DNA of 64,000 nt from an uncultured Ruminococcus sp. (GTDB taxonomy: Bacteria > Bacillota > Clostridia > Oscillospirales > CAG-272). The notes below the pieces were generated by a model, which did no database searches, was not told the DNA's origin, and saw only the letters and a list, made by a program, of their open reading frames with translations. This document shows, piece by piece, positions 1,573 through 62,726 of this stretch (positions are counted from its first letter, which is position 1; each line of letters starts with the position of its first letter). The position numbers were made by a program, and so were the translations under genes. Where the stretch lies: assembly GCA_902795355.1 (NCBI GenBank), contig CADBKZ010000006.1, positions 148,496 to 212,495 of the forward strand. Direction: 5' to 3'.

Positions 1573-2421
1573 TTACGGTTGCGGATCCCGTCCCCCGAAA
1601 ACCGCCATTGCGGATTTCGCGTTTTGCTTCATGGCTTCCGTCGCGGTAATTTCAATGTCGTGGAAAAACATTTGGTCGGAAAGTTCTTGAACCGCCGCGC
1701 CGCCCGCCTTGGCCATGTAGGTATAATAGTTGATTTTCCGTATGCCGAGCGAGATCACCTTTCGGTAATCATCCGTACTCACGCCCGAGCCGCCGTGCAT
1801 CACCAACGGAACGTTTACTATGGACCGGATCTTCGCCAACCGCTCAAAATCCAACTTGGGCTGTTTGACATACAGGCCATGGGCGGTGCCGAACGCGCAT
1901 GCCAGCGCGTCAACGCCCGTCCGGTTTACGAATGCTTCCGCATCCGCGGGATCCGTAAACAGGCTCTCGTCGGTGTTCCCCGAAACGGCAGACTCCCGCG
2001 CGCCCATGGAGCCGATCTCCGCTTCCAGCGAGGCTCCGCACCGCAGGGAAATTTCCCTTGCAATGCAGGTGTTGGCGCAGTTCGTTTCGGGGTCCAGCGC
2101 GGAGCCGTCGTACATCACCGAGGTACAGCCCAAATCAAGCCCCCATCGGAGATAGGAAAGGTCGGTTCCGTGGTCCAGATGCACGCACACCGGAACGCTC
2201 GCGCGGTCTGCAAGCAACCGCATTACGGGAACGATCTCTTCCATTTTGCAAAGCCCCATCTCCTCGTGAATCTGGGCGTGCATAACGACGACTGGTTCCC
2301 CGAGTTCTTCCGCCGCTTGGAGAACGGCGCGCAGGGTTGCCATGTTGGGGGTGTTGAACGACCCGACGGCACACCCTCTCGCCTCCGCAATTCTCAAAAT
2401 GTTTTTCAATGTTACAAGCAT
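1573..2421 (-). CDS. Class II ketose-bisphosphate aldolase (Fba/GatY-like)
   Basis: A 282-residue zinc-dependent class II aldolase, the family of fructose-1,6- and tagatose-1,6-bisphosphate aldolases. It carries the signature HLDHG (metal-binding His and catalytic Asp), the LEAEIGSMG strand, GTAHG and VMHGGSG, which together make the phosphate and metal site. It is the last gene of a minus-strand operon, 25 nt after a FGGY kinase and an L-fucose-isomerase-like gene, so it likely cleaves the phosphorylated ketose made by them into DHAP and an aldehyde. The usual fuculose or rhamnulose pathway uses a different aldolase fold (AraD-like), so the substrate here may be an unusual sugar phosphate. 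A ribosome site (AAAGGGA) precedes the ATG. Confidence 0.88.
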   Translation of the reverse strand: MLVTLKNILRIAEARGCAVGSFNTPNMATLRAVLQAAEELGEPVVVMHAQIHEEMGLCKMEEIVPVMRLLADRASVPVCVHLDHGTDLSYLRWGLDLGCTSVMYDGSALDPETNCANTCIAREISLRCGASLEAEIGSMGARESAVSGNTDESLFTDPADAEAFVNRTGVDALACAFGTAHGLYVKQPKLDFERLAKIRSIVNVPLVMHGGSGVSTDDYRKVISLGIRKINYYTYMAKAGGAAVQELSDQMFFHDIEITATEAMKQNAKSAMAVFGGRDPQP

Positions 2422-2446
2422 GGTTTTTCCCTTTCTTTCCGTTTTT

Positions 2447-3931: not shown

Positions 3932-3932
3932 C

Positions 3933-5336: not shown

Positions 5337-5358
5337 GGTATCTCCCCCTTTTTTCTTT

Positions 5359-5364
5359 ATTGTA
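5359..5364 (-). promoter_or_regulatory. Putative -10 box of the isomerase operon
   Basis: TACAAT on the minus strand, 23 nt before the start at 5336. No good -35 hexamer lies 17 nt upstream, which would fit activation by the divergent AraC-type regulator. Confidence 0.4.
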
Positions 5365-5449
5365 CCATACAGACGCCGCAAAAGATAGTGATGATCATAC
5401 AAATCACTGTAAAATCGTACACTTTTCCGAACATCTTTACAAAAACGGA

Positions 5450-40287: not shown

Positions 40288-41187
40288 CTAAATAAGGTCG
40301 CTTTTCTGTCGGTCCGCAACCGGTTCTATGGCATAGAACAGCGTTTCGGCATGGTTCGGCGCAAGGCGGAACATGGCGTTTTTCTTGGCAAGATCGTCGA
40401 TCCGGCCGTTCATGGAAGGCAATCCCGCCCACGGCTCAATGCAAAGGTACGGCGCGTTGGTACGCGGCGCGTGCCAAATGCCGAGGTACGGAAAATCGGG
40501 GAAACGCACCGAGAGGCGGCATCCGCTTTTTTCGGAGCAAAGCGTCGCCGCGCCGCCGCACCCTTCAAAAAAGAGCGCGTCCACATCGAACAGGCTATGG
40601 CGCAACGGGAGCCGATTGCCGCTTTCCAGCGGGTAAGGGGCGCGTTTTCCGGTATCAAAGCAAGTGTCGGTAAATTCCAGCAATCGCAGGTTGGCGGCGG
40701 CAGGGAACACAAGGCTGTAATCCGAAAAATCTTTGCCCGCCGCCAAGGGTACGCGGAAGCCCGGGTGCGCTCCGAACGCAAACGGGAGCGTTTCGGTTCC
40801 CGTGTTTTCCACGCGGGATGTCACTTCCAGCGCGCGCTCGGTTAAGCGGTAGGTAATGGAAAGGCGAAAATCAAACGGGTAACAGCCGCGCGTTTCGGAA
40901 TCCGATTCCAATATCATGGTAATTTCGTCGTCCCGCAGCTCCGACGGCCGGAATGCGCGGAACCGCGCAAACCCGTGGATCGGCATTTCGTAGGCGGTTT
41001 TGCGATAGGTGTACCGCCCCCCGAACAGCCGGCCGCAAATGGGAAACAGCACCGGCGCGCGCTCCGCCCAATAGGCGGGGTCGCCCTGCCAGAGAAATTC
41101 GCAGCCGCCGCGCCGGATCGAGAGAAGCTCCGCTCCAACGTCCTTGACCCGAACGGAAAGGTCTCCTTTTTTCAATTCATAAATCAT
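40288..41187 (-). CDS. Aldose 1-epimerase-family protein
   Basis: A 299-residue galactose mutarotase-like protein of the aldose 1-epimerase family (IRRGGCEFLWQGDPAYWAERAP, FGAHPGFRVPL, ICIEPWAG). It interconverts sugar anomers in the cytoplasm. I use the ATG at 41187 with AAAGGA 11 bases ahead; the GTG at 41196 is too close to that site. It is the last gene of the mannose operon, after the SGNH esterase. Confidence 0.82.
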   Translation of the reverse strand: MIYELKKGDLSVRVKDVGAELLSIRRGGCEFLWQGDPAYWAERAPVLFPICGRLFGGRYTYRKTAYEMPIHGFARFRAFRPSELRDDEITMILESDSETRGCYPFDFRLSITYRLTERALEVTSRVENTGTETLPFAFGAHPGFRVPLAAGKDFSDYSLVFPAAANLRLLEFTDTCFDTGKRAPYPLESGNRLPLRHSLFDVDALFFEGCGGAATLCSEKSGCRLSVRFPDFPYLGIWHAPRTNAPYLCIEPWAGLPSMNGRIDDLAKKNAMFRLAPNHAETLFYAIEPVADRQKSDLI

Positions 41188-41209
41188 GGAATGCACCGTC
41201 CTTTTTGGG

Positions 41210-41256: not shown

Positions 41257-42543
41257 TTAATCCAGCGAAATAAAGTACGAATTGGTTGTGCCGTTCAGAT
41301 AGGCCCGAACCGCCGCGGCGATCTCGTTCGCCATAATCACATAGCCCGCATCGTTCGGGTGGAGCGAATCGGGGAAGTTTGCGGAGCCGATCTTATCCTG
41401 CGACAGGGTGTGCATATCGTAGAGCGCGAGCGAGTAGCCTTTTTGCAGCATCTTTTTGGCGGTTTGCGTTTGCAACGCCACCACATGCGGCGAGGCGGGA
41501 ACGCCCGTTTCGCCCGACCGATAGCACTTGGGGCAATTCATCATCAGCACTTTCATATCGGGGCTCATGGCCTTGATGCCGCGAAGGATATGATGGCAGC
41601 TTGTAATAAACCGGTCGTCGGCGGTGGTGGTCCAAGTTCCGCTGTCGCGCGAGCTGTCGTTGGTGCCGAGCATCAGAAGAACCAGATCAAACGGCTCGGG
41701 ATTGGCGATCAGGTCGGCATAGGTCGTGGTTTTGTAGTAGGAATCGGCAAGGTCGTCGCGCATGGTTTTCCCGCCGTTGCCGTAGTTGGTAACAATGGCG
41801 TCCTTCCACAAAACGCGTTGCAGGTTGGCGGGGTACGAGGTGTATTCGCGATCGGTCGCGCCGGTTCCCGCCGTAATGGAGTCGCCAACGCAGGCAATGC
41901 GCGTTAAATGGTGCGTTCCCGCAACGTTTGCCGCGGCGGTGAAATCCGCGGCGGTTTTTCGCTCCGCTTCCTGCCCTTCCAACCATGCTTCCAGCGCGTC
42001 AATCGCATGCCATGTGGTTCCGTAGGCTCCGCCGCAGATCACCAGCTTTCTTTCGTTGGTGGTCAGGCGAACCTCAAACTGATCGGCGGCGAGGTCGGCG
42101 GTGTGCAGGTTGCGGTTGGTGTTGCCGATCAGAATTTCATGCGCGCCCGGGGTTTTGACGTTGGAATCCTGTTTGACTTCCAACGCCACGCCGAACCGCT
42201 CTTTCAGCAGCGCGGCCAACCGTTCCGCGGTCAGGCGGTCGAAATCATAGTCGTTGACGATCAGCTTTTGCGTGTTATTGTTGAATTGGTTGATTACCTT
42301 ATAGTAGCTGTTCCGCGCGTAGATGATGGTAAACTCGGAGAGCGCTTCGCCGCCTACGGTAAGCTGCTCCAACTTGATTTCCGGTTGCGGAGAAGCGGAT
42401 GTCTCTTCGTCCGGCGCGGACGAGGCGATTGTTTCGCGTGTTTCGGTCGCTGTATCCGCCGGCGTTTTTCCGCCGCCGCAGGCGGAAAGCAAGGGAGCGA
42501 GCAGCAGGCACAAAACCAGCAGGAAAGCAACCGTTTTTTTCAT
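41257..42543 (-). CDS. SGNH/GDSL-family esterase lipoprotein
   Basis: A 428-residue lipoprotein (lipobox LSAC). Residues about 60-200 form an N-terminal domain of unknown role. From about residue 210 it is an SGNH hydrolase: CVGDSITAG (block I Ser), YGNGGKTM (Gly), LGTNDS (Asn) and DSLHPND (Asp and His). Such enzymes remove acetyl or other acyl groups from glycans at the cell surface. It follows the GH38 mannosidase by 23 nt, so it may strip acyl groups from mannose-rich glycan. Confidence 0.85.
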   Translation of the reverse strand: MKKTVAFLLVLCLLLAPLLSACGGGKTPADTATETRETIASSAPDEETSASPQPEIKLEQLTVGGEALSEFTIIYARNSYYKVINQFNNNTQKLIVNDYDFDRLTAERLAALLKERFGVALEVKQDSNVKTPGAHEILIGNTNRNLHTADLAADQFEVRLTTNERKLVICGGAYGTTWHAIDALEAWLEGQEAERKTAADFTAAANVAGTHHLTRIACVGDSITAGTGATDREYTSYPANLQRVLWKDAIVTNYGNGGKTMRDDLADSYYKTTTYADLIANPEPFDLVLLMLGTNDSSRDSGTWTTTADDRFITSCHHILRGIKAMSPDMKVLMMNCPKCYRSGETGVPASPHVVALQTQTAKKMLQKGYSLALYDMHTLSQDKIGSANFPDSLHPNDAGYVIMANEIAAAVRAYLNGTTNSYFISLD

Positions 42544-45618: not shown

Positions 45619-46467
45619 TCAGAATGAAAGCTGCGCCCAAACGGCGTTGTGATCCGAAAGGAACGGGCCGTAGGGGCAGAGGTTGGTTGCGGTGCAGATC
45701 ATGCCGTACCGCTCCGCGCGGACGTTCGGGCTGACGAAGATATAATCGATCACGTGTCCGCGTCGGGAAAGATCGGCCGCGGAGCCGCACCAATGAAACC
45801 CGGGGCTGGTGCAAAGATCGGCCGGCAGCGTTTCGGCCGCCGCGGCGCGGGCGTTGCAAAGCCGCTCCGTATAAAGCCGGTAAACTTCCGAATCGGGCGT
45901 GGAGTTCATGTCGCCCACGAGGATCACGGGGCAATCGGCCGCGCCGAACTCTTTTTCCGCGCGCTCCCGCAAGGCCCCGATGCGGGAAAGAACGGTTTGC
46001 GCTTGGTTCGGCCTTGCGGCCTTTCCTTCATGGTCCAGATGCGTATCCAGCATCAGAAACCGTTTTCCGCTCGGCAACGCCTCGAAAAGCGCGTAGGTGC
46101 AAATGCGGTCGAAACGGGCGTCCCAACCGACCGTCGGGGTCTCGGGCGCGCCGTCCGCCAACCAAAAAACGCCGCTGAACAGGGGGCGGTAACGGCCGGA
46201 CCGGTAGAAAATGAATCCCGCTTCCCCCGTATTTTCGGTATGCCCGCCGACCATGCCGTAGCCCGAAACGGGATGATCCCGTAGCCAATCGCGCCATGGC
46301 GGCGAAAGCTCCTGAAAACCGATCAGGTCCGGATTCTCCCCCGCGATCAGCCGTTCCAGACCGGCCGCGCGGGTCGCCACCGTTGCGTCGGCCATAACGT
46401 TTTCGTTTCCTCTGACCGGCATTTGCGGCGCATTTTTGCTTAATACATTCCAAGATAAAACTTTCAT
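45619..46467 (-). CDS. Endonuclease/exonuclease/phosphatase (EEP) family protein, cytoplasmic
   Basis: A 282-residue EEP-fold (DNase I-like) metal-dependent phosphodiesterase. SWNVLSKNAPQM, LIGFQELSP (Glu ligand), LDTHLDHEG, VGDMNSTP (Asp-Asn) and SDHNAVWA (catalytic Asp-His) are all present, so it should be active. There is no signal peptide, unlike its two lipoprotein paralogues. It lies in the mannose operon. Possible substrates are phosphodiester or sugar-phosphate bonds in glycans or nucleic acid; unresolved. Confidence 0.85.
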   Translation of the reverse strand: MKVLSWNVLSKNAPQMPVRGNENVMADATVATRAAGLERLIAGENPDLIGFQELSPPWRDWLRDHPVSGYGMVGGHTENTGEAGFIFYRSGRYRPLFSGVFWLADGAPETPTVGWDARFDRICTYALFEALPSGKRFLMLDTHLDHEGKAARPNQAQTVLSRIGALRERAEKEFGAADCPVILVGDMNSTPDSEVYRLYTERLCNARAAAAETLPADLCTSPGFHWCGSAADLSRRGHVIDYIFVSPNVRAERYGMICTATNLCPYGPFLSDHNAVWAQLSF

Positions 46468-46505: not shown

Positions 46506-47585
46506 CTAAAAATACAGGTCGGCGATTACGGCGTTATGATCCGAAAGATACGCGCCGTAGGGGCAGAGGTTGGTGGAAGTATGCACCATCCAATAGTTCG
46601 TAACTTTCACGGCATGCGAAACGAAAATATAGTCGATCCTGTGCCCGTTCGCAACATAATCCGCTTCCGTGTTGCAATGGCTGTACCACGGGCTTGTGGA
46701 AATTTGGGAAGAAACCGTGGTTCCCTGCGACATATCCCGCGAATCGCGCAGATAGGAAATCAACAGCGGATAGGCATTGCTGCTCGGCGTGGAGTTCATG
46801 TCCCCAACGAGAATTTCGGGGAGCGTGTAGGAGAGTTCGTATTTCTGTTTCAGCTCGGTGCGGAGCGATTCGATCCGCTCGGAGAGGACCTTGGCCTGCT
46901 TTTCGGCGGCGGAGCTGTTGGTATCCAGATGCGTATCGCAGAAGATGAAATAATTTCCGGTAGCCTTTTCCTGAAACAGCGCCCATGTGCAGGTGCGATC
47001 CCAATTGCTATCCGAATACTGGTTGGTTGCCGCGCTTTTCCATTTTGCAGGGGTTCCCTCTATCAGCCAGAACATCCCGTTCTCCACGGGCGTAAAGCGG
47101 GATTTGAGATAAAGCACCGCGCCGCCCTCTTGCGTTCCGTGCGTGTAATAAACCACAATGCCGTATTTCGAATCGGCGTGGCTATCCCACCACGTTCCCC
47201 AAACGTCGCTTTTCCATTCCTGCAAGCCGGCAATGTCAATCGCCTCTCCGCGGAGCAGTTGGCGGAATTTCGGGCCGCGGGTGGCAACCGTTGCGTCCAC
47301 TTCCTCCTCAATGCCCGTGGTTCCCCCGTTGCCGTACTCCATGGTTGAGGTTTTCCGGTTCATGCCGTGAATATTGAACGACATCACCCGCACGCTGATC
47401 CGCTCGCGCGCGGCGGGAAGATCGACCGCGGTCGTCTCTTCCTCGGTGGTAACGGGAGCGGCGGTCTCGGTTTCGGCCGCCGAAGCGGGTTCGGAAGCGG
47501 GGACCGGAACCGTTCCCCCGCCGCAGGAGACCAGCACGGCCGAGCACAGAAACAACGCGAACAAAATTTTTCCGATTTTCATCAT
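46506..47585 (-). CDS. EEP-family lipoprotein
   Basis: A 359-residue lipoprotein (lipobox LVSC) with a Thr/Ala-rich linker and an EEP domain from about residue 75. Catalytic segments: MSFNIHGMN, IAGLQEWKS, CDTHLDTNS, VGDMNSTPS, SDHNAVIA. Start at 47585 (ATG with GGAGGTG five bases ahead), overlapping the stop of the mannose-6-phosphate isomerase gene by four bases, so they are coupled. It acts outside the membrane, on phosphodiester substrates not yet identified. Confidence 0.86.
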   Translation of the reverse strand: MMKIGKILFALFLCSAVLVSCGGGTVPVPASEPASAAETETAAPVTTEEETTAVDLPAARERISVRVMSFNIHGMNRKTSTMEYGNGGTTGIEEEVDATVATRGPKFRQLLRGEAIDIAGLQEWKSDVWGTWWDSHADSKYGIVVYYTHGTQEGGAVLYLKSRFTPVENGMFWLIEGTPAKWKSAATNQYSDSNWDRTCTWALFQEKATGNYFIFCDTHLDTNSSAAEKQAKVLSERIESLRTELKQKYELSYTLPEILVGDMNSTPSSNAYPLLISYLRDSRDMSQGTTVSSQISTSPWYSHCNTEADYVANGHRIDYIFVSHAVKVTNYWMVHTSTNLCPYGAYLSDHNAVIADLYF

Positions 47586-48646
47586 TTTTTCACCTCCGGC
47601 GGTATGCAAACGATGATTTCCATCTGTTCGCGGCTCTCGATGGCAAACTGCCCTTTGAGACAATGCGGCAGGAAGAAGTAGTCGCCTTTCCGGAGCGGCG
47701 CGGAACCGTTCGGATAGGAAACGGTTCCCGACCCGTTCGTTACCACATAGACCGCGGGAGCTTCGGTATCGGTTACGGCTCCTCCGTTCAGGGTAACGCG
47801 GCGAACCGCGAAACACGGGGTATCCGAAAAGCGGATCAGCATTTCGTTTCTGACCTGCCCGTTATCCGAAACCAGAACCGGCTCCCTGCGCCCCGCCGCT
47901 ATGGCGGCCTCGCCGGAAATGGCGTAGTTGAAGCAATCGAGCGCGACCCGCGGCTCCAAGCCGAGGTACATCTGCTCGGGGGTGAGTTTCACATCCCCGC
48001 ACCAATATTCCGGCTGAATGGTAAAATCGGTGGGTTCCTGCGTTTCGAGCAACAGGCACCCCGCGCCAATGGCATGGATCATGCGCGCGCCGATGAAATA
48101 GACGTCTCCTTTTTTTACGGGGATGCGGTTGAGAAGCGAGGACATGGCCTCGGGGTTCCGCTCGCTTTCCGCAACGGCCTTTTCAAATTCCGCCCGCGTA
48201 AGCCGGTTGCGGAAGCCGAAATAGATGCAGGCGTTCTCGCGGGTTTCCAGAATTACCCACGATTCGGCTTTCCCGTGCGTGGAGTTCAGATACCGCTCGG
48301 AATACGCGCGGTCGGGGTGGCACTGCACGGGCAGGCGGATGGCGCTATCCAGCAGCTTGACCAAAATGCCAAGTTCGGCGCGATCGCCCAAAAGCTCCCC
48401 GCGGTATTCCCGAAGCAGGTCGGTGAACAAAACGCCGGTTCCGCGCACCACCGAAATCCCCTCGTTCGGCCTTCCGTTCTCGCCGTTCAGGGCGAGAACG
48501 TCCGAACTTACCCATTCTTCTGGATAAAGGCTATCCTCGGGCGCGTCGCCGAAGAATCCCGAAAACAGCTTTCCGCCTTTATATACACGCCATACCCGAT
48601 TTCGTTCAAAAAAAATCGGTTTTCTGACATTCATTTTCAAATCCAT
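47582..48646 (-). CDS. manA: Mannose-6-phosphate isomerase (class I)
   Basis: A 354-residue cupin-type zinc enzyme that interconverts mannose-6-phosphate and fructose-6-phosphate. Key segments: VQCHPDRAYSE (QxHP metal site), KAESWVIL (KxE), GARMIHAIGAGC (His ligand), and GDYFFLPHCLKG. Start at 48646 (ATG) with GGAAGGA about 13 bases upstream; an ATG at 48634 is an alternative. It heads an operon of mannosidase, EEP, esterase and mutarotase genes, feeding mannose to glycolysis. Divergent from the ROK regulator. Confidence 0.88.
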   Translation of the reverse strand: MDLKMNVRKPIFFERNRVWRVYKGGKLFSGFFGDAPEDSLYPEEWVSSDVLALNGENGRPNEGISVVRGTGVLFTDLLREYRGELLGDRAELGILVKLLDSAIRLPVQCHPDRAYSERYLNSTHGKAESWVILETRENACIYFGFRNRLTRAEFEKAVAESERNPEAMSSLLNRIPVKKGDVYFIGARMIHAIGAGCLLLETQEPTDFTIQPEYWCGDVKLTPEQMYLGLEPRVALDCFNYAISGEAAIAAGRREPVLVSDNGQVRNEMLIRFSDTPCFAVRRVTLNGGAVTDTEAPAVYVVTNGSGTVSYPNGSAPLRKGDYFFLPHCLKGQFAIESREQMEIIVCIPPEVKK

Positions 48647-48708
48647 GGATTTACAGGTTCCTTCCGAAAAAATCATCAAAAAATAATTCAAAAATCGAAC
48701 AAAATCAC

Positions 48709-48736: not shown

Positions 48737-48781
48737 AGAACTAATAGAACTATAAAAACAAAAAGCAAGGAAAAACGGTCT

Positions 48782-49930
48782 ATGAAAACCTATCCGCACA
48801 ACGTTAAAACCATTAAAAGCGAAAACCGTGCGCTCATCTTTAACTACCTGCGGCGGAAACCGACTTCCCGCGCGGAAATCTCCAAGGGATCCGGCATGTC
48901 CAAATCCGCCGTTACCATGATTACCAACGAGCTGATCCACGACGGGCAGATTGTGGAAACCAACTCCGCCCCCTCGGCGCGCGGCCGGAAGTCCATCCTG
49001 CTCGACATTGTGGCCGATTACCGCGTGGCGGCGGGCATTTCCCTGCACCGCAAGCATATTTACGTTTGCATTGTGGATCTGAAATCGCGCATCCTCGCCT
49101 ACGCCAGCCACAAAACCTCGGATTGGAACAACCCCTACCGCCTGATGGACGACGCCTATCGGGAAATTTGCGGTTTTCTGGAAGAGCTGAACATTCCGAA
49201 GGAGCGTTGCCTCGGCATCGGCGTCAGCGCGCCGGGGCCGCTGGACTATGTTTCGGGCGTTATGATGTCCTCTCCCGAGTTTGAGTTATTTCACAATGTG
49301 GACGTTCGCTCCTACCTGCAAAACAAATCGGGAATGCCCGTTATGCTCGATAACAACGCCGTTCTGCTTGCCATGCAGCAATCGCTCTCCAACCAATACC
49401 CCTACAAAAACTTCATTTTTGTGGTGGTTTCCAACGGGATCGGCTCGGCCGTGATCAACAACGGCACCGTTTACCGCGGGTTCCGCGGGTTTGCGGGGGA
49501 GCTGGGACACACCAGCATTCACGCAAACGGCATTCCCTGCTCCTGCGGGAACGCGGGGTGCTTGGAAAAATACATTTCCATTCAGGCGTTGCAGGAAAAA
49601 TTCGGGATCCCGTCCTACGAAAAAGTGGTGGACGACGCCTACATGGGCGACCACGAGGCCAACCGGATTCTCGAATACATCGCGGATGAATTTTCCTGCG
49701 CGCTCGGAAACGCGATTAACCTGTTTGACCCCGACGGCGTGATTATTTACGGGCAGTTCTCCTACCGCCCCGAAAAGCTGTTTGCCCTTTTGCAGGAAAA
49801 GGTGAACCGCCGCTCGGTGATCACCCGCACGCATCCGGTGGAAATTTCCTACTCCCGCATGCAGCCGGACGAGGCGAGCGCTTCGGTTTGCTCCGCCATT
49901 ATCAACCGCTATTTCGAGCAAAAGCTCTGA
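48782..49930 (+). CDS. ROK-family transcription repressor
   Basis: A 382-residue ROK repressor. Residues 1-80 are a winged helix (NRALIFNYLRRKPTSRAEIS, GMSKSAVTMITNELI). The rest is a kinase-like sugar-binding fold with the ROK zinc motif CSCGNAGCLEKY and GVSAPGPLD. No adjacent sugar kinase gene. Family members bind sugars or sugar phosphates and release operators. It is divergent from the mannose-6-phosphate isomerase operon and probably represses it. The ATG at 48782 is preceded by AGCAAGGAAAAA. Confidence 0.9.
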   Translation: MKTYPHNVKTIKSENRALIFNYLRRKPTSRAEISKGSGMSKSAVTMITNELIHDGQIVETNSAPSARGRKSILLDIVADYRVAAGISLHRKHIYVCIVDLKSRILAYASHKTSDWNNPYRLMDDAYREICGFLEELNIPKERCLGIGVSAPGPLDYVSGVMMSSPEFELFHNVDVRSYLQNKSGMPVMLDNNAVLLAMQQSLSNQYPYKNFIFVVVSNGIGSAVINNGTVYRGFRGFAGELGHTSIHANGIPCSCGNAGCLEKYISIQALQEKFGIPSYEKVVDDAYMGDHEANRILEYIADEFSCALGNAINLFDPDGVIIYGQFSYRPEKLFALLQEKVNRRSVITRTHPVEISYSRMQPDEASASVCSAIINRYFEQKL

Positions 49931-50026: not shown

Positions 50027-51625
50027 TTATTCTTCTTCCTTGCGGCGAACGGCAAGAACCGCTCCGCCGAGGATGGCGACAATTACGGCAACTCCGCCGC
50101 CGATTACGCTTTTGCATCCGCCACTTTCAGCAGGTGCGGAAGCCTCGGTTGTGGGAGCTTCGGTTGTGGGAGCCTCGGTTCCGGTGGCGGGAGCCGCAGT
50201 TGCAGTAGTTGCGGGAGCGGCCGAGGTTTCCGGAGCGGTTGCCGACGTGGCTGGCTCGTCGCTCTCGGCGGGCTTGGCGATCTCGTCCTCGCTGACAGGC
50301 TCGGCGGGAACTTCGCTATCGGCAAGCGCAATCGGGTAGGTCGCGTCGCCCGAGAGCTTGAAACCGCTGCCCAACTTGGTAATCATCGCCTCGGAAGCGA
50401 ACTCCGTTGCGGTAACAAAGGTTCCGCTGTATTGGTCAACCATGTTTCCTGCGACCTCAACGGTGGATTTTTCGTTCTTCTTGTTGTTCGAATGTTCCAG
50501 CCAAACGGAAGTATCGGTGTATTCCCCGTTATGTTCCTGTTGGTATTTCCAAAGCGTATTTTCCAACGTATAGCAGTTGGTGAAAATTTCGGTGGTGAGT
50601 TTGTCGGTGGATTTGAAGTATGCGATCATGCCGCCGATCTGACCGGACAAATAGTTCGTCACCAGATTGCCTGCGTTGAAGCAATTGGTAATGCGGGCGT
50701 TCTCGTTCGCGTCCTCGCTGGAAGAGATCATACCGCCCACTTTCGCATCCGCGTTGGTTGCGGTGGCGGCGGTTCTCCAAGAGGTGATCAATCCGTAGTT
50801 GCCGCAGTTGGTGATAACAAATGCGCCGCGGTCGGAGCAGGCAATGCCGCTCGCACGGGACTGGTGCGCGACAATGGTGGCGAAATTGAGGCAGTTGCTG
50901 ACGGTTCCGCCGTTCAATTGCGAGGTAATACCGGCAACATGGAAGTTGGATTCAACAAGCCCTTTGGAAACGCAATGATCCACCGTTGCTCCGGCGCGTA
51001 CATAACCCACAATGCCGGAAGCGCGGTCGCCGTTGCCTTTTACGGTTCCATCGAATGTCAGATAGCTCATTTTCCCGTAGTTATCATACGAAACGCCCGA
51101 CGCGTCGATTCCCGTGCTGGTAACTTCCATATTCTTGAACTCGCAGTTGATCATTTCACCGGTTGCGGAGAGCTTATAAATAACGCCCGCCGCTTTTTCC
51201 TTTGTGGAAACTTTTCCGCCGTCGATGTTGACGTTATAGACCTTGCCTTGAATGTCGTTGGCAAAAATGGCGACTTCTTTCGTGGCAGTGGCGTTGACAA
51301 CCTCGGCGTTGACAAAGGTGATGTTCTTGACGATGCCGAACATATCCAGCGTGTCGATCATCGGGCCGCTCGATTTGTAGTTGATAATCTTGTGGCCGTT
51401 GCCGTTCAGAACGCCTTCAAAGTAGTCCATCGTGACCCAATCCTTGGTAAGCGTAATGTCGGCGGTGAGCAGGTAGACGCCATCGTCTTCCATGTTGATC
51501 AGTTCCTCTTCGGTTCCGATCGGGGTGTAGGCGGAGAAGTCTTTCTCCTCGTCGGCAAAGGATGCAACCGTAAACAGGCTTGCAAGCATTGCCATGCAGA
51601 GCAAAAGGGTAAGCGCTTTTTTCAT
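50027..51625 (-). CDS. GLUG-like secreted protein with GGC-type C-terminal anchor
   Basis: A 532-residue exported protein. The signal peptide (MLASLFTVASFA) is followed by beta-solenoid-like repeats (YFEGVLNGNGHKI, GIVGYVRAGATVD, GGMISSSEDAN, GQIGGMIAYFK) like those of the GLUG proteins. A Thr/Ala/Pro-rich linker leads to SGGCKS, a hydrophobic helix and the tail RRKEEE. The anchor has the same GC-x-S start as the protein at 14290. Probably a cell-surface adhesin or enzyme scaffold. A promoter region lies in the 75-nt gap from the binding-protein gene. Start with AGGAAGGAT upstream. Confidence 0.72.
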   Translation of the reverse strand: MKKALTLLLCMAMLASLFTVASFADEEKDFSAYTPIGTEEELINMEDDGVYLLTADITLTKDWVTMDYFEGVLNGNGHKIINYKSSGPMIDTLDMFGIVKNITFVNAEVVNATATKEVAIFANDIQGKVYNVNIDGGKVSTKEKAAGVIYKLSATGEMINCEFKNMEVTSTGIDASGVSYDNYGKMSYLTFDGTVKGNGDRASGIVGYVRAGATVDHCVSKGLVESNFHVAGITSQLNGGTVSNCLNFATIVAHQSRASGIACSDRGAFVITNCGNYGLITSWRTAATATNADAKVGGMISSSEDANENARITNCFNAGNLVTNYLSGQIGGMIAYFKSTDKLTTEIFTNCYTLENTLWKYQQEHNGEYTDTSVWLEHSNNKKNEKSTVEVAGNMVDQYSGTFVTATEFASEAMITKLGSGFKLSGDATYPIALADSEVPAEPVSEDEIAKPAESDEPATSATAPETSAAPATTATAAPATGTEAPTTEAPTTEASAPAESGGCKSVIGGGVAVIVAILGGAVLAVRRKEEE

Positions 51626-51700: not shown

Positions 51701-53239
51701 TTACGCGTTTTGTTCGAGCTTGGCGACAAGATCTTCCAACAGCGTTCCGATTACGTTCTTCTGCTTTTTGAACGTGGTAGCCGTGGATTGCGAGGTTACG
51801 GTATCGCGGAAGATGTTATGAACGGAGTTGAGCGAATTGCCCCAAGCAAAGGCGAAATCAATGTAAACGCTGTCGTGGATCAGGTCCACCATGCGCGAGG
51901 AATCGGGGTCTCTGGAATACTTATAGTGGAGCGTTTCATCGTAGTACACTTTGCGCACGGTCTTATAGGAGAGCGCAGCCATCAGTTCAAGCGTTGCGGC
52001 CGAGGCGGGAATGGTATCGCCGGTGGCCATCAGACCGAAGAGCGTGCAGCCGTCGTGAATGCCCGTGCGGTAGTTTTCCTGCGCCGCGTTCAGCTTCGGC
52101 GAGGGGATAATGCCGTAGTTCTCGAACTCGCCGAGGTAGTTTTCGGCTTGGTACACCTTATCGTGAACGAACAGGGTCCTTCCCGTGTTGAAAATTTCGA
52201 ACGCCTTGGCGGAATGGTTGTGGGGAATCACGTAATACGCGCCGTCGCCTTCATAGAACATGCGGTACATTTTCTGCGCAAATTCCACGGCCGCTTGGTT
52301 CAGCGCGGTGTCGGTAATGGCGATCTGAACGTTGCCTTCGCTGTCGGTCGTGCTCCATACCACGCCCGCGCCGACCGCCATGCCGTCCAGCATGTCGTTC
52401 TTCTCCACCACAAGGCCGAGGCGGTCTCCCGCGCTCGTTCCGGTGGCTCCGCCGGATTCGTTCTCGTCAAGGTCCATATACGCCTCGCGGGACATTTCTT
52501 CGAGCGTATCCAACGTCCACGCCCCGTCGTCCACCAAGTCGTAAATGCTTCCGTGCTTGGTCAGCATTACGTCGTTGTAGAGCTGGAGATTGACAAAGGT
52601 GCAGTACATGCCGCCGAGATACCGCAGGGCAAGGTCGCCGGTAATCCAATACATGCTCCCTTTGTAGGCCAGCGCGTTGTCGTACTGTTGCGACCAATAC
52701 GGCTTCTCGAACCCGATGTAATCTGCGCCGTACTCGCCGAGCTTGTTCAGGTTCATCACAATTCCCTGCTGCGCCAGCGCAATGTCCCATGCCTGATAGC
52801 CGCCGAGAATATCAAACGCCGATTCTCCCGAAAGAAGGTCGTTCATCAGCGTGTTCTTAATGATCGCGTCGTTGATCGCGCGGCAGAGGATGGTGACGTT
52901 GAGCTGGTCTTCCACCTGCATGTTGCGGGAGTAAACCGCGTAGTCCACTTTTGCGTCGGGATCGAAATCTTCGAGCATAATGGATCGTTCGGTAAAGGTT
53001 CCGCCTTTGTTGGCGCTCGGTTCGCCGATCAAAAACGAAATTTCGGGGTCGTTGAAGCGCAGGTCGGACGGAAGATCGGTTTCATCATCCGCCGGCGGTT
53101 CGGCACTTTGGGTCTCCTGTGCGCTCGTATCTCCGGTGGCCGGCTGCGGTTTCTTGCCCTGCCCGCAGCCAACGGCCGCAAGAGCCATGGCAAACAACAG
53201 CAGAACCACGAGAAAACGAACATACATTTTCAGTTTCAT
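51701..53239 (-). CDS. Extracellular sugar-binding lipoprotein (ABC-type SBP) 2
   Basis: A 512-residue lipoprotein (lipobox AVGC). It resembles the carbohydrate-binding protein at 19976: GAWTLDTLEEMSREAYMDLD, GDGAYYVIPHNHSAKAFE, YGIIPSPKLNAAQENY. It binds an oligosaccharide or monosaccharide for import, but no permease genes are in the window. It is divergent from the glycyl-radical enzyme cluster and shares palindromic operators with it, so it probably supplies that pathway. AAGGAGAAAA site before the ATG. Confidence 0.84.
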   Translation of the reverse strand: MKLKMYVRFLVVLLLFAMALAAVGCGQGKKPQPATGDTSAQETQSAEPPADDETDLPSDLRFNDPEISFLIGEPSANKGGTFTERSIMLEDFDPDAKVDYAVYSRNMQVEDQLNVTILCRAINDAIIKNTLMNDLLSGESAFDILGGYQAWDIALAQQGIVMNLNKLGEYGADYIGFEKPYWSQQYDNALAYKGSMYWITGDLALRYLGGMYCTFVNLQLYNDVMLTKHGSIYDLVDDGAWTLDTLEEMSREAYMDLDENESGGATGTSAGDRLGLVVEKNDMLDGMAVGAGVVWSTTDSEGNVQIAITDTALNQAAVEFAQKMYRMFYEGDGAYYVIPHNHSAKAFEIFNTGRTLFVHDKVYQAENYLGEFENYGIIPSPKLNAAQENYRTGIHDGCTLFGLMATGDTIPASAATLELMAALSYKTVRKVYYDETLHYKYSRDPDSSRMVDLIHDSVYIDFAFAWGNSLNSVHNIFRDTVTSQSTATTFKKQKNVIGTLLEDLVAKLEQNA

Positions 53240-54360: not shown

Positions 54361-56733
54361 ATGAACCAAAACGCAAAACACACCGTTGAACTCGCGAAAG
54401 CCCTGTTCCGCGAGGAACGGAGCATCAAAAAACTGACCGGCTGGTTCCGGATCCGCGAAACCGCCGCGCGCGAGGAGCAAAAATACCGCTCCCTTTCCGC
54501 CGAGCGCGCAACCGCCGCCCTGCTCCGCGAGGAGTTGACCGCCCTGCCGCTCTCCATTTCGGAAAACGCCGTTTTCGCGGGTACGCAGCGCGACGCGTTC
54601 GCGCGCACCTACGCGCTCATCAACCCCTCGTTCCGCGTGGAGACCTTCGCGGGCTACTGCGACCCGACCGCGGTGTTCGGCGACATTGACCCCGACGAGG
54701 AGTTCCCGAAAGAGCGCATTGAAAAACTTCGCCAATATACCCTGAACACCCCCTACGTCCGCGAGCTTACGGCCATGTACAAGGCCGCCGAAAGCTACAC
54801 GGGCGAGGTGATCTACTTTGTGGAGCAGGTCACGGGGCATCTGATTCCCGAGTTTGGAACCGCCCTGCAATACGGCACGCTCGATCTGATCCGCACCGCA
54901 AAAGAGAAAGCGGCCGCCGAGACCGACCCCGAGCGCGCCGACAACCTGCTGGCCTTTGCCGACGCGCTGGATTGCGCGGGGCTTCTGGCCGACCGCTACC
55001 GCGCCATTGCCGCCCAAAAACAGGCGGCCGCCGAAAAAACGGGCGACGCGGAAAAAGCGTCCCGTTTCGGCCGCATTGCCGCGGCGTTGACCCGCGTTCC
55101 GCGCTACGGCGCGCGCGACCTTTACGAGGCCATTCAGAGCTTCATGATCCTGTGGGAAATCATGTGCATCGAGCAAGCTCCCAACCCCTATGCCTTCTCC
55201 GTCGGCAACGCGGACCGCATCTTCGAGCCTTACCGCCACGGCCTCTCGCGCGAGGACGCCGCCGCGCTCTTCTGCCATTTTCTGGTGTTCTTCAACGTGG
55301 CCGACCGCAGCTGGGCGATCTCGCAGAACCTGCTGGTGGGCGGGCGCGACATTGACGGGAACGACCTGACCAACCCCACGTCCTATTCGCTCCTCGACGC
55401 CTACTATGAAATGAACCTGCCCCAGCCGATCCTTTCGGTCAAGCTCCATAAAAACACTCCCGACCGCCTTTACGCGGAGCTTGGGCGGTTCTTCTTCTCC
55501 CCCGGGGTTCTCACGCCGTCGCTCTTCAACGACGATTCGCTCTTCACCATCCTCGCCGAGAAAGGCGTTGCGCCCGAGGACATTGAAGCCGCCAGCGTTG
55601 CCGGCTGTCAGGAACCGCTGATTCGCGGCAAGGACAACGCCAACACCACCAACAGCTGGCTCAACCTCGGCAAAATTCTGGAATTGACGCTCACGGGCGG
55701 CGTTTCCACCGTTACGGGCAAAAAGCTCTGCGATTTTGAAAAAATCCCCGCGAAGGATCTTCTGCCGCGCCTGCGCGAGCAATTCTACAAAAACATGGAA
55801 ACCGCCGTTGGCTGGATGGTGGATTCCGCGAACGGCGCGTCCCGCGCGCTCTCCCATTTGCGCGTTCCCTTCCTCTCTTCCTTTATGGGCGGGCTGGACT
55901 ACGGCTACGACACGCGCGACACCGACCGGCAGGGGACGAAATACAACGGCTCCGGCTGCTTGATTCACGGGCTTTCGGTGGTGGCCGATTCGTTCGTTGC
56001 CGTGGATCACCTGCTCCGCGAACGCCCCGAGGACGCCGACCGCCTGCTCGACGCGCTCCGCACCGACTTCAAGGACGATCCCGAACTGCGCGAATATCTG
56101 CTCTCCTGCCCCAAATTCGGCAACAATCTGCCCGAGCCGGACCAAGAGGCGGCGGAAATTGCCAACCGCGTTTCCGACATGGTGAACCGCTCCCTGAACT
56201 ACCTCGGCAACCCGTTCCGCGCCGATTGGAGCTCCCCAACCACGCACCTGACCTACGGCTATTGGGTGGGCGCGATGCCCTCGGGCAGAAAATCGCGCGA
56301 TATGCTCAACTACGGCGTGGATCCGCTTTACGGAAGCGCTGAAAGCGGGCTTGGCATGCGGATGCTCTCCAACATGCAGCTTCCGTTCTGCAAAATGTGC
56401 GGCGGCTACGCCTCGCACCTCGGCATTGATCCCAAATATTTCCCCGCGCCCGATTTTGAGGGCAAGGGTCTGCAATTCAAGGAGCGCGTAATCGAGCCGC
56501 TCTTCTTCAACCCCGCCGTCAAGGGCGTTTCCCCGTTCTATCTCTACGTCAACGTCACCACGCCCGAAACGCTCCGCAAACTGCTCAAAAATCCGAAAAA
56601 GTACGCGCCGAGCGGCGTTTACATCGTTCGGATCCACGGAACCTTCGTCAACTTCCTCGACCTCTCCCCCGACGTTCAGGAAGACATCATCCGCCGTCTG
56701 GATCCCGCGTCCACGGCGGACATCGGAGCGTAA
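54361..56733 (+). CDS. Glycyl-radical enzyme (PFL/dehydratase family), divergent
   Basis: A 790-residue glycyl-radical enzyme, full length for the family. Active-site Cys416 and Glu418 lie in AGCQEP, where dehydratases and lyases have GCVEP. GHLIPEF matches the GHxxPxY segment near the N-terminal third. The radical loop should read RV(S/A)G(Y/F); here it is VRIHGT, with Gly760 retained 30 residues from the end and LDLSPDVQEDII following normally. So the Gly is kept but its neighbours are replaced. Substrate unknown: it does not match PFL, CutC or propanediol dehydratase loops. The kinase, GH76-like lipoprotein and binding protein point to a sugar-derived substrate. Confidence 0.86.
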   Translation: MNQNAKHTVELAKALFREERSIKKLTGWFRIRETAAREEQKYRSLSAERATAALLREELTALPLSISENAVFAGTQRDAFARTYALINPSFRVETFAGYCDPTAVFGDIDPDEEFPKERIEKLRQYTLNTPYVRELTAMYKAAESYTGEVIYFVEQVTGHLIPEFGTALQYGTLDLIRTAKEKAAAETDPERADNLLAFADALDCAGLLADRYRAIAAQKQAAAEKTGDAEKASRFGRIAAALTRVPRYGARDLYEAIQSFMILWEIMCIEQAPNPYAFSVGNADRIFEPYRHGLSREDAAALFCHFLVFFNVADRSWAISQNLLVGGRDIDGNDLTNPTSYSLLDAYYEMNLPQPILSVKLHKNTPDRLYAELGRFFFSPGVLTPSLFNDDSLFTILAEKGVAPEDIEAASVAGCQEPLIRGKDNANTTNSWLNLGKILELTLTGGVSTVTGKKLCDFEKIPAKDLLPRLREQFYKNMETAVGWMVDSANGASRALSHLRVPFLSSFMGGLDYGYDTRDTDRQGTKYNGSGCLIHGLSVVADSFVAVDHLLRERPEDADRLLDALRTDFKDDPELREYLLSCPKFGNNLPEPDQEAAEIANRVSDMVNRSLNYLGNPFRADWSSPTTHLTYGYWVGAMPSGRKSRDMLNYGVDPLYGSAESGLGMRMLSNMQLPFCKMCGGYASHLGIDPKYFPAPDFEGKGLQFKERVIEPLFFNPAVKGVSPFYLYVNVTTPETLRKLLKNPKKYAPSGVYIVRIHGTFVNFLDLSPDVQEDIIRRLDPASTADIGA

Positions 56734-58069: not shown

Positions 58070-59509
58070 ATGAAAAAAGATCTGTTCGGGGGTCGTCTCC
58101 CCGCCCTGCTCCTGCTGGCGGCGTTGCTGCTTGCCGCCTGCGGGAGAGCGGCCGCCCCCGCCGAAACGGAAACGCGGCCGGAAGAATCCGCACCGCCCGC
58201 CGAAACCACCGAAACGGCCGAAACGACCGCGGAAAATTCCGAGGTCCGGCAGTTGGAAGATTTCCGCACATGGGCGGATACCGCCGTGGAAAACCTGTAC
58301 GCGGCGTTCTGGAACGACGCCGAGGGGCATTTTCTCCGCACCACCGAGGGGCAACCCGACCCCAACGCCACGTGGATCTGGGAGTTCGGCCAATCCGTGT
58401 TCGCTCTGGAAACCTACTACCAAGCCACCAAAAGCGAGGACGCGCTCCGGCATTTGCGGCGGCAATGGGCCTACCTGCGCTCGTCCGCCTACGATCAGGA
58501 GAAGCTCAAAGGAAACAAGGATTTGAGCGGGGATTGCTACCACGCGCAGGACGACGCCGCATGGGGCGCCATGGAATTTATGGCGTTCTGGCGCGCCACG
58601 GGCGACGAAATTGCGCTGACCTACGCGCACGACCTGCTTGTAAACTCCTACCGCCATTGGGGTACGGGAGAGGTGCAAACCTTTGCGGGAACGCAGCTGC
58701 CCGACCTTTCGGAAGGCCTGTACTACACCAAAAATCTGGAAACGGGCGAATCGCCGTTCAAATCCATTTACGCCGCGCCCATGGCCGCGGCCGCGCTGGA
58801 ATACTGCATGGCGGTCTGCCCCGCCGACCCGATGTCGGTCGATCTCTACCAACCCACCGCAAACCTGATTTCATGGTTGGAAACGAACATGTGCCGCAAA
58901 GCTCCCGCGGTTTACCGGAACTACCGCGGGGACGGAGCCGACCTGACCGTTACCTATGCGGATAACCTCTACTATGTGGATTACGGCCGCTTCGGGGAAA
59001 ACGGCCCCACGGGCGCGGATAACCCCGGGCGCATCGAGGTAAACGGGAGCAACACCGCGCTCTTCGGCAACATGGCAATGGCGGTTTGCCATGCCATGCT
59101 CCACCGCATTACGGGCGAGCAGGCCGAGCTGGAAGCGGCGCGGCGCACGGCAAGGGCCATTCGCAGCAAGGAGACCCACCCGCTCACGCTCCCCACCTAC
59201 ATCAACGACCGCGATCAAGGTACCAACGCTTCCATGGTCGGCTATTTCGTCCGCTACGTCCTCTCGCTGGACGAACCGGCGACCCGCGAACGCAAAATTC
59301 TGCTGAACACCGCAAAGGTGATTGCCACCAAAGGCCGCGTGGCGGATACCCCCTATTATTACACGGTTTGGGACTCGGACCCCGCTTCCCACACCGTTTA
59401 CTACCCGAACAACAGCCGCACCTTGGCCTACACCTGCCAGCCCCGCCTTGCCAACTGCGTTCACATGATTACCGCGGCATTGCTGATGATTCAACTCGGA
59501 ATCGACTGA
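58070..59509 (+). CDS. Six-hairpin glycosidase-like lipoprotein (GH76-like)
   Basis: A 479-residue lipoprotein (lipobox LLAAC) with a Thr/Glu-rich linker. The main domain has repeating helices of an alpha/alpha barrel (ALETYYQATKSEDAL, AMEFMAFWRATGDEI, AVCHAMLHRITGEQ). CYHAQDDAAWGAMEF resembles the paired Asp motif of GH76 alpha-1,6-mannanases; the match is partial. It is the last gene of the glycyl-radical operon, 18 nt after the kinase. It may release from a surface polysaccharide the sugar the pathway consumes. Confidence 0.6.
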   Translation: MKKDLFGGRLPALLLLAALLLAACGRAAAPAETETRPEESAPPAETTETAETTAENSEVRQLEDFRTWADTAVENLYAAFWNDAEGHFLRTTEGQPDPNATWIWEFGQSVFALETYYQATKSEDALRHLRRQWAYLRSSAYDQEKLKGNKDLSGDCYHAQDDAAWGAMEFMAFWRATGDEIALTYAHDLLVNSYRHWGTGEVQTFAGTQLPDLSEGLYYTKNLETGESPFKSIYAAPMAAAALEYCMAVCPADPMSVDLYQPTANLISWLETNMCRKAPAVYRNYRGDGADLTVTYADNLYYVDYGRFGENGPTGADNPGRIEVNGSNTALFGNMAMAVCHAMLHRITGEQAELEAARRTARAIRSKETHPLTLPTYINDRDQGTNASMVGYFVRYVLSLDEPATRERKILLNTAKVIATKGRVADTPYYYTVWDSDPASHTVYYPNNSRTLAYTCQPRLANCVHMITAALLMIQLGID

Positions 59510-59577: not shown

Positions 59578-60711
59578 TTACGCCGGAATGATCTCGGCGA
59601 TTACGCAATTGTGATCGGAAATATATTCTCCGTAAGCGCAAAGGTTGGTGGCGGTGTGGAGCATGGTATAATTCTTTACCGTACAATTCCGGCTGACGAA
59701 CACGTAGTCGATAATCCAGCCGTTCTTGCAAACGTTGTTCTCGCTTTTGCCCGCGTACCAGAACCCCGGGGACGTGGCAAATTCATCCGCCACGGTAGAG
59801 CCGACCGACGCTTTTCGCGAATCGGAGAGCACGCCCGAGAGCGTCGCATAGCCCCGTTGCGCGGGCGAGGAGTTCATATCCCCCGTCAACGCTATGGAAA
59901 AGCGCGAATAGGACGAATATTTCGTTTTCAGCTCCTCGATCTTTGCAAGAATCGCTTTGGCCTGCGCCTCGCGGACCAGATCGTCGTTTTCGTTCTTTTG
60001 CAGGTGGTGCAAATGCGTATCCAGAACGATGATGTATTGGTCGGTGTTCTTCAGGTGCAGAACCACCCATGTCAGTATGCGGTCGTGCGTTGGGTATTCG
60101 GAAGGCTGCACCTCGTTCCCGTTCGCGTCCTTGCCCAGCGCGGGAAGCGTGATTCTCCCGTAGGAATCCGCAACCTGCTCCAATTTCTCTTTGCGGAAGA
60201 GGATATACCCGCCCTCGCCCGAGGACGAGGTTTTGTCGCCCACCATGTCAAAATCGGAAAAGCCGCGCAGTTTCGCTTTCCATGCGGATGTGGCTTCCTG
60301 CACGCCGAGAATATCAATCCCCTCTCCGGCGAGGAGCGATTCCAACTTCGGGGCGCGGGTGTCGATGGTTGCGTCGAAGGTAATGGAGCTGTTGTTCTTT
60401 GCGCTTCCCTGCTGATCCCAATAAAAAATGTTGAAGGACACCACTTTCAGCGTTTCGGGTTGGGGCTGCGGCTCCGGTTCCGGCGCGGCGGTGGTTGCGG
60501 GAGCAGTCGTAACGGGAGCGGCGGTTGCGGCTTCGGACGGCGTTTCGGATGCGGCGGCAGATTCCGCGTCGGTTGCGGCGGCCGACGTTTCGGGCGCGAC
60601 GGGCGACGTTTCGGGCGCGACGGGCGACCCCGCTCCACAGCCGACAACGGCGGTTAAAAGAGAAAACAGCAGCAAAACGGCCGCAAGATGCAAGATAGTT
60701 TTTTGTTTCAT
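59578..60711 (-). CDS. EEP-family lipoprotein (2)
   Basis: A 377-residue lipoprotein (lipobox AVVGC) with a long Thr/Ala/Pro/Glu linker holding a tandem repeat (SPVAPET twice, from a 21-bp DNA repeat near 60589-60629). The EEP domain from about residue 90 has SFNIFYWD, ILGVQEATS, LDTHLHHLQ, TGDMNSSPA and SDHNCVIA. It is convergent with the glycyl-radical operon and next to a repeat array. Substrate unknown; extracellular phosphodiesterase or nuclease are the options. Confidence 0.86.
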   Translation of the reverse strand: MKQKTILHLAAVLLLFSLLTAVVGCGAGSPVAPETSPVAPETSAAATDAESAAASETPSEAATAAPVTTAPATTAAPEPEPQPQPETLKVVSFNIFYWDQQGSAKNNSSITFDATIDTRAPKLESLLAGEGIDILGVQEATSAWKAKLRGFSDFDMVGDKTSSSGEGGYILFRKEKLEQVADSYGRITLPALGKDANGNEVQPSEYPTHDRILTWVVLHLKNTDQYIIVLDTHLHHLQKNENDDLVREAQAKAILAKIEELKTKYSSYSRFSIALTGDMNSSPAQRGYATLSGVLSDSRKASVGSTVADEFATSPGFWYAGKSENNVCKNGWIIDYVFVSRNCTVKNYTMLHTATNLCAYGEYISDHNCVIAEIIPA

Positions 60712-61760: not shown

Positions 61761-62726
61761 TTACCCGATGAAAACCTCGGCGATTACGCAGTTGTGGTCG
61801 GAAATATAGGCTCCGTATGGGCAGATGTTGGTGGACGTATGGACCATCCGGTAGTTCTGCACGTCCATATTTCCCACAAAAACGAAATCAATAATCCAAC
61901 CGTCGGCGTGGCAGCGGTAGGCGGGATGTTCGGGATCGGCAATGTAGGTAAACTCGGGAGAGGAATCGAGGTCGGTTCCCAGCGTTTCCCCGCGCGAAAC
62001 CAGCCGCGAATCGGACAGCGCGGATGTAAACACAGGGTAAGCCGCCATGCTGCGGGTGGAGTTCATATCCCCCGTCAGCATTACCGAAACCTCGGTTTTT
62101 CCCTCGTTGCGGAGAGCTTCCAGCTTTTCGTTCAGAAACGCCACGATTTCAACGGCCTGACGGCGGCGGATTTCATCGTCGTTCGCGCCGCAGTGCCATT
62201 GGTGCAAATGCGTATCCAGCGCGAGCACATAGCGGTCCGAATCCTTGATTTGCAGGAGAGCCCAGCCGCAAACGCGGTCATGGTAGGTACCCGTCGGGTT
62301 TCCGTTGTTGTCCGTGGCGGAAGCGGTCAGAATCACGTTTCCCTGCGCGTCCTTTTCCTCGTAGAACAGGGCGAAGGAACCGCCATCGGAGAGGTCGAAG
62401 CGCGACTTTTTATAAAGGATGTAGCCGCCTTCGCCGTCAATCTTTTTCCCGCCGCCGGCATAACCGTAGTCGTCCAACCCCGAAATCAGGGGCAACCAAT
62501 TGTTGTTTGCTTCCTGCAAGCCCACAATATCCAGCGATTCCCCGCGGATCATGGCCATCATTTTGGCAAACCGCTCGGGAACGCCGCGCTGAATATTGGC
62601 TTCCTGCTCCGCGGTAACGTCGGTGCGCGGGGCGTTGTTCGCGCTGCTCGGGTATTGGTAGATCTTATAGTTGTTCGCGCCGCCCAGAACGTTGAACGAG
62701 GCGATCCGGTAGGTATGCGAGGCCAT
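61761..62726 (-). CDS. EEP-family protein, probably the C-terminal half of the 62726 protein
   Basis: A 321-residue EEP domain (IASFNVLGG, IVGLQEANN, LDTHLHQWH, TGDMNSTRS, SDHNCVIA, all catalytic segments present). It lacks a signal peptide although its paralogues are lipoproteins. Its ATG overlaps the stop of the upstream gene (62726). Upstream of the ATG, codons in the same frame read FYGSEL, which would follow the upstream protein's VVN naturally if one T were added to a TTTT run. So one exported multidomain protein may have been split by a one-base deficit. Confidence 0.78.
   Translation of the reverse strand: MASHTYRIASFNVLGGANNYKIYQYPSSANNAPRTDVTAEQEANIQRGVPERFAKMMAMIRGESLDIVGLQEANNNWLPLISGLDDYGYAGGGKKIDGEGGYILYKKSRFDLSDGGSFALFYEEKDAQGNVILTASATDNNGNPTGTYHDRVCGWALLQIKDSDRYVLALDTHLHQWHCGANDDEIRRRQAVEIVAFLNEKLEALRNEGKTEVSVMLTGDMNSTRSMAAYPVFTSALSDSRLVSRGETLGTDLDSSPEFTYIADPEHPAYRCHADGWIIDFVFVGNMDVQNYRMVHTSTNICPYGAYISDHNCVIAEVFIG

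Follow-up and report, generated by a model that had tools for sequence, protein, structure and literature searches.

Glycyl-radical enzymes (GREs) whose radical loop reads RIHGT are a real, previously uncharacterized subgroup of their superfamily, and they are encoded next to a radical SAM activase and an FGGY-family sugar kinase wherever the flanks of the gene can be read. The window analyzed here, a stretch of 64,000 nucleotides, encodes one of them (Table 1). Few stretches of GREs are as conserved as the radical loop, which is what the activases recognize. Thus, a clade with a fixed RIHGT that nevertheless keeps the Gly, the Cys, the Glu, and a dedicated activase offers a natural test of the roles of the loop residues. 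The fixed kinase partner, in turn, is a direct handle on the product of the GRE, and the enzyme suggests that Clostridia of the rumen and gut degrade sugar by an anaerobic step not yet described.

Table 1. Features of the window, with coordinates counted from its first nucleotide (L numbers denote individual GRE loci)
Feature	Position	Strand	Remarks
Aldose 1-epimerase-like protein	40288..41196	-	Also in L085, L090
GDSL esterase-like lipoprotein, 3' of GH38	41257..42543	-	GDSL genes also in L081, L090 operons
GH38 alpha-mannosidase, 1005 aa	42567..45584	-	Sole GH38 in host genome; no evident signal peptide
Divergent class I phosphomannose-isomerase-like Zn cupin (PMI-like)	47582..48691	-	Partner in 21/33 loci
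ROK-family regulator, divergent from PMI-like gene	48737..49930	+	Partner in 11/33 loci
Cognate GRE activase, radical SAM, 244 aa	53602..54336	+	CNLRCPWC; compact, PflA-like
GRE of the RIHGT subgroup, 790 aa	54361..56733	+	Translation, Pfam, NCBIfam, PDB, tree
Active-site motif G-C416-Q-E418-P	55603..55617	+	Clade-invariant
Radical loop Y748-P770, including insertion S751-V753	56602..56670	+	Translation, alignment
FGGY-family sugar kinase, 438 aa	56735..58051	+	GQMHG as in xylulokinase
Lipoprotein, 3' of kinase	58070..59509	+	No family match; closest relatives only; membership uncertain

The window protein combines the features of the superfamily, namely, a PFL-like barrel, a C-terminal radical Gly, the active-site Cys416, and a cognate radical SAM activase. 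The PF02901 (PFL-like) domain covers residues 18-633 (E 5e-94), and the C-terminus including Gly760 aligns with GrcA, PFL, and glycerol dehydratase in NCBIfam and PDB searches; a direct alignment places Gly760 in the same column as the radical residue of glycerol dehydratase (GDH), YbiW, PflD, and PflB. On translation, residues 748-770 read YAPSGVYIVRIHGTFVNFLDLSP, and the protein ends in ...YAPSGVYIVRIHG(760)TFVNFLDLSP. Gly760 therefore occupies the radical position within an otherwise normal C-terminal context, as the initial annotation had it, and that annotation was equally right in taking Cys416 and Glu418 to be intact: the active site is C416-Q417-E418 in VAGCQEP, with both residues invariant in the clade. 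The loop itself (R757-I758-H759-G760-T761) does not follow the consensus R-V-x-G-[YFW]; the Arg and Gly are kept, whereas the Val, the small residue, and the aromatic residue are replaced. An AlphaFold model from a 13-sequence alignment (mean pLDDT 66, below 50 in the core) confirms the GRE fold alone.

A scan of GTDB genome contigs, together with profile searches covering some 1,500 genomes, recovered 38 distinct full-length homologs that are 56-83% identical to the window GRE. Every one of them, like every fragment covering the loop, reads exactly RIHGTFVNFLDLSP, in the context APxGxYI[VM]RIHGTFVNFLDLSP (the flank being, in detail, AP[SN]G[VI]YI[VM]), and all 38 share the Cys motif [VI]AGCQEP. 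Just before the loop lies a three-residue insertion (SGV in the window GRE) that is absent from all other GREs aligned. The loop being common to 38 distinct homologs, a local mutation, a sequencing error, or chance is ruled out as its source; absence of HGT from close homologs had been named as a refuting outcome, and no close homolog lacking it was seen. The loops of other GREs among the relatives are RV[ASG]G[YF], RVCGWN, RVSGWN, RIWGWS, and RLGGF. The form RV(S/A)G(Y/F), at first given as the norm, is thus too narrow, since RVGG[YF] and the last four types also occur, but the singularity of HGT stands: a His before and a Thr after the radical Gly are confined to this clade among all GREs seen here. 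Because both are invariant, a function is proposed for H759 and T761, be it in loop structure or tuning, in recognition by the activase, or in catalysis. Conservation also suggests that the GRE with RIHGT is a functional enzyme with a dedicated activase and kinase.

Outside the clade, identity to other GREs falls to about 25-28%, without intermediates, and the loops there are of canonical type. A maximum-likelihood tree of the 38 members, other GREs of related genomes, glycerol dehydratase, and the E. coli proteins YbiW, PflD, and PflB (computed by a quick method, with weak deep forks) recovered the members as one clade (SH-aLRT 100) whose stem measures 2.79 changes per site; glycerol dehydratase falls elsewhere, in a group with YbiW and PflD. 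None of the curated GRE equivalogs in NCBIfam (HypD, CutC, HpsG/HpfG, PFL, decarboxylases) was reached, all scores being far below their cut-offs. The best NCBIfam match, TIGR01774 (PFL2-3 subfamily; formate C-acetyltransferase/glycerol dehydratase family GRE), spans residues 147-780 with 197 bits versus a cut-off of 678. Against choline TMA-lyase CutC, the score is 119 bits versus an equivalog cut-off of 1050, and there are no choline or microcompartment genes nearby. PflB shares the GRE fold, and its PflA is compact like the activase of the window; however, the score is 57 bits versus a cut-off of 994, and in alignment the PFL double cysteine (ACCVSP) is missing, a single Cys with a Glu (GCQEP) standing in its stead. 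By both sequence and fold, the best PDB match is glycerol dehydratase. The B12-independent glycerol/1,2-propanediol dehydratases (PDB 1r8w, 9rco, 5i2g) resemble the window GRE in their barrel and Cys-x-Glu, but they are only about 22-25% identical to it, have RVAGY in place of RIHGT and its insertion, and fall in a separate clade, whereas the RIHGT GRE has an obligate sugar-kinase partner. Together, the NCBIfam cut-offs, the PDB identities, and the tree rule out membership in a characterized subgroup, in agreement with the original statement that no function could be assigned. Literature searches returned no description of an RIHGT group, and no paper in the library searched joins a glycyl-radical enzyme with an FGGY kinase. 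The separate cluster with a conserved HGT and a conserved kinase neighbor that had been set as a test is what we found: clade support is 100, HGT is invariant, and kinase and activase are present in 33 of 33 well-flanked loci. As a separate matter, GREs with a Trp after the radical Gly (RVSGWN, RIWGWS, RVCGWN) in L002, L003 (own genome), L013, L014, L027, and L033 branch in the tree as a weak sister group of the HGT clade and appear to be further groups without assignment.

The active site also sets the protein apart from the dehydratases. His160, which is invariant across the clade, as are His536, His629, and His686, aligns with GDH His164; however, the position of GDH Asp447 is taken by Thr430, and the textbook diol-dehydratase pair is therefore absent. 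This Asp, 14 residues past the Cys in both the glycerol/propanediol dehydratases and PflD, is thus a Thr here. The preceding Thr429, at Cys+13, has a counterpart in YbiW, and it matches the spacing of CutC Thr502, the residue exchanged in a CutC T502A mutant structure.

The neighborhood was surveyed in the 33 loci with at least 3 kb of flank on both sides of the GRE. The activase and the FGGY kinase are both present in all 33, so that the adjoining activase gene and the coupled kinase of the initial annotation are well founded. In the window, the activase stop lies 24 bp 5' of the GRE start, and the kinase begins 1 bp after the GRE stop; with such gaps, the three genes look like one transcription unit. 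The activase scores 165.9 bits against TIGR02494, slightly under the cut-off of 174. The kinase shares its GQMHG motif with E. coli XylB and differs from the GlpK motif; it reaches only about 23% identity with any FGGY kinase of E. coli and scores 105 bits versus the XylB equivalog cut-off of 380. Activases of the clade come in two sizes, about 235-245 aa (as in the window) and about 290 aa with an extra Cys-rich segment (as in L043:7111-7983), next to GREs with near-identical loops. In two loci (L091:6025-6858, L092:5972-6805), the kinase is followed by another radical SAM gene of GRE-activase-like type (277 aa), with no second GRE beside it.

Around this fixed core, other sugar-related genes recur in part of the loci. 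The PMI-like protein keeps the Zn-site motifs QxHP, GKxE, and HAIG, and scores 70 bits versus the manA cut-off of 116. A gene of the D-lyxose isomerase family (Lyx_isomer; D-lyxose/D-mannose isomerase) is found in L085 and close by in L109. Regulators other than the ROK type are of the AraC (n = 7) and GntR (n = 3) families, and a DUF2961 gene occurs in L081. Two loci, L075 and L108, carry a transaldolase-type gene between the GRE and the kinase. The functional meaning of the Gln/Tyr residues of fructose-6-phosphate aldolases of the FSA type, as opposed to the Glu/Phe of transaldolases, is established. At the positions of FsaA Gln59/Tyr131, the L075 protein has Glu/Phe, as does TalB, and the L108 homolog is 66% identical to it; an FSA-type aldolase like that adjoining ybiW was accordingly rejected for L075. 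Ordinary GREs of the YbiW kind from the same order (L010, L031), in contrast, adjoin FSA-type Gln/Tyr genes. Though the two loci are few, the Glu/Phe pair argues against a simple copy of the YbiW/PflD pathway. Elsewhere in these neighborhoods, a methyltransferase-like gene of the MtaA/URO-D type (L106:7463-8521) separates the GntR regulator from the kinase within the module of a spirochaete. In L042:3088-7140, a second, unrelated GRE (736 aa, RVTGF, and GCNW without the Glu of Cys-x-Glu) lies directly upstream of the HGT module, accompanied by its own activase and a GH88 gene.

Glycosidases in the neighborhood point toward mannose. A GH38 gene lies inside or adjoins the operon at three loci (L074, L082, L107), and the window has one nearby, its protein being 43% identical to the GH38 within the L074 operon; GH92 is seen in L114 and GH130 in L046. 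Across 23 carrier genomes with about 71 GH38 domains (our sum), three GH38 genes lie within a few kilobases of the GRE (G175, G176, G1320), versus about 0.3 expected at random as estimated from genome sizes. The GH38 of the host is about 9 kb from the GRE, an arrangement shared by the same-genus genomes G028 and G004, the three counting as one event. The window GH38 has no evident signal peptide, as would fit an enzyme that cleaves an imported mannoside inside the cell. However, most loci have no mannosidase, such neighbors being limited to about 6 of 33 loci and varied in kind, and GH32 (L039, L107), GH172, and GH2 are found as well; the mannose link is hence suggestive, not conclusive. The closest NCBIfam name of the window GH38 is mannosylglycerate hydrolase, with 134 bits versus a cut-off of 1138, and a mannosylglycerate pathway is thus unsupported. 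In L074:6334-9732, a single ORF encodes a GH38 alpha-mannosidase and, after it, an aldo/keto reductase-like domain, an arrangement that may be a true fusion or an assembly artifact. The sugar connection drawn originally is strengthened by the PMI-like isomerase, the transaldolase, the D-lyxose/mannose isomerase, and the mannosidase neighbors, but two of the clues first offered for it were dropped. Neither the "glycosidase-like" lipoprotein 3' of the kinase nor the "sugar-binding protein" (51701-53239) has a Pfam match, and both recur only in the closest relatives.

Taken together, these observations fit best, in a tentative account that we place slightly short of an even balance, with a functional, undescribed GRE subgroup that serves a kinase-coupled anaerobic sugar pathway, probably one related to mannose. 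The most likely reaction would cleave a C-O bond in an unphosphorylated sugar or polyol and leave a keto-sugar, the lyase or dehydratase activity of the initial annotation being likewise putative. The cognate activase would generate the radical at Gly760 of the RIHGT loop, as conservation implies, and from there the radical would pass to Cys416, whose thiyl form would take a hydrogen from a carbinol carbon of the unphosphorylated substrate. Glu418, His160, and Thr429/Thr430 may then help the neighboring C-O bond to leave, by dehydration or ring opening, to yield the carbonyl. The FGGY kinase would phosphorylate this keto-sugar, or a ketose supplied by the PMI-like isomerase, and the product may enter central metabolism via aldol-type cleavage or a transaldolase, the kinase presumably acting after the GRE. 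Against this account stand the replacement of the dehydratase/PflD Asp (Cys+14) by Thr430, the transaldolase-type Glu/Phe (FsaA: Gln/Tyr), which misfits a 1-deoxyketose product of the YbiW/PflD kind, and the few and varied mannosidases. A bolder version, which we regard as rather unlikely, is that RIHGT is the signature of a GRE acting by a new reaction on a free mannose-type sugar or polyol, that His759 is catalytic and not merely structural, and that kinase, isomerase, and transaldolase form an undescribed anaerobic pathway.

The nearest precedent is provided by YbiW and PflD, sugar GREs seen with bound 1,5-anhydroglucitol-6-P (PDB 8id7) and 1,5-anhydromannitol-6-P (PDB 8id0), respectively, the product of their pathway being 1-deoxyfructose 6-phosphate (PMC12441222). 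They too have their own activase and aldolase-family or sugar uptake genes nearby; the RIHGT module has no adjoining PTS but an FGGY kinase and a PMI-like isomerase instead. A distant analog of these enzymes would be a C-O lyase that opens the ring of a free or kinase-phosphorylated anhydro-alditol, such as 1,5-anhydromannitol, to a 1-deoxyketose (phosphate); the FGGY kinase would stand in for the PTS step, and an aldolase would act downstream. Such chemistry exists in the superfamily (PMC12441222; PDB 8id7, 8id0), the kinase and aldolase-family gene beside the GRE in L075 and L108 mirror ybiW-ybiY-fsaA, and YbiW similarly lacks the +14 Asp and has a Thr at +13. We nonetheless consider it unlikely: the RIHGT clade lies outside the YbiW/PflD group, its aldolase-family neighbor has transaldolase residues where the YbiW-kind GREs of L010 and L031 adjoin Gln/Tyr genes, and the PMI-like isomerase of the module is left unexplained.

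A comparably low probability attaches to a division of labor in which the isomerase and kinase process mannose, via fructose, to fructose 6-phosphate, while the GRE handles the aglycone of the same imported mannoside. It would account for the GH38, GH92, and GH130 neighbors next to mannose-type isomerases, and the best name of the GH38, mannosylglycerate hydrolase, is in line with it, though far below cut-off. However, the GRE and kinase are always paired (33/33) and the isomerase is missing from about a third of the loci, which ties the kinase to the GRE and not to the isomerase.

More doubtful is a C-C lyase or sugar-acid decarboxylase that would deliver a lyxo- or manno-type aldose for conversion by the PMI-like or D-lyxose isomerase to a ketose and by the FGGY kinase into the pentose-phosphate pathway, for example from D-mannuronate via D-lyxose and D-xylulose to xylulose 5-phosphate. 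Decarboxylases and C-C lyases are both known among GREs, which counts in its favor; isomerase, xylulokinase-like kinase, and transaldolase would follow the classical order of an aldose pathway, and both the isomerase and the transaldolase would be accounted for. Yet GH38, GH92, and GH130 mannosidases yield mannose, not mannuronate, and the known GRE decarboxylases use arylacetates. Finally, a degenerate or non-catalytic GRE with a lost loop function is strongly disfavored: the loop does differ from the consensus of characterized activases (RVSGY type), but loop, Cys, Glu, and C-terminus are perfectly conserved down to 56% identity, the activase adjoins as well, and a fixed new motif is not expected from decay.

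The carriers are mostly MAGs of rumen and gut Clostridia, joined by two spirochaete genomes, one of them from groundwater. The RIHGT GRE was found in 14 of 391 genomes in the class sample, 9 of 394 in the order, 8 of 95 in another order, and 2 of 198 in the spirochaete sample; the host itself was the sole match in a 249-genome phylum sample, and a search of viral contigs returned no relatives. This sporadic distribution suggests lateral transfer or repeated loss.

Several further genes of the window deserve mention. Four paralogous Exo_endo_phos proteins flank the GRE locus (45619-46467, 46506-47816, 59578-60711, and 61761-62726, all on the minus strand), some with lipoprotein-like N-termini, and L035 and L040 have relatives of them next to this locus. 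These two loci also have, at the corresponding position, relatives of a secreted protein (50027-51625, minus strand) with a Thr/Ala-rich stalk, a hydrophobic C-terminus, and no Pfam match. A separate sugar operon (1573-5402, minus strand) encodes, as judged by eye, a class II aldolase-like protein, a second FGGY kinase, and a fucose/arabinose-isomerase-like protein; its kinase is 26% identical to the GRE-linked one, and an alpha-galactosidase-like gene (6456-8471) adjoins it.
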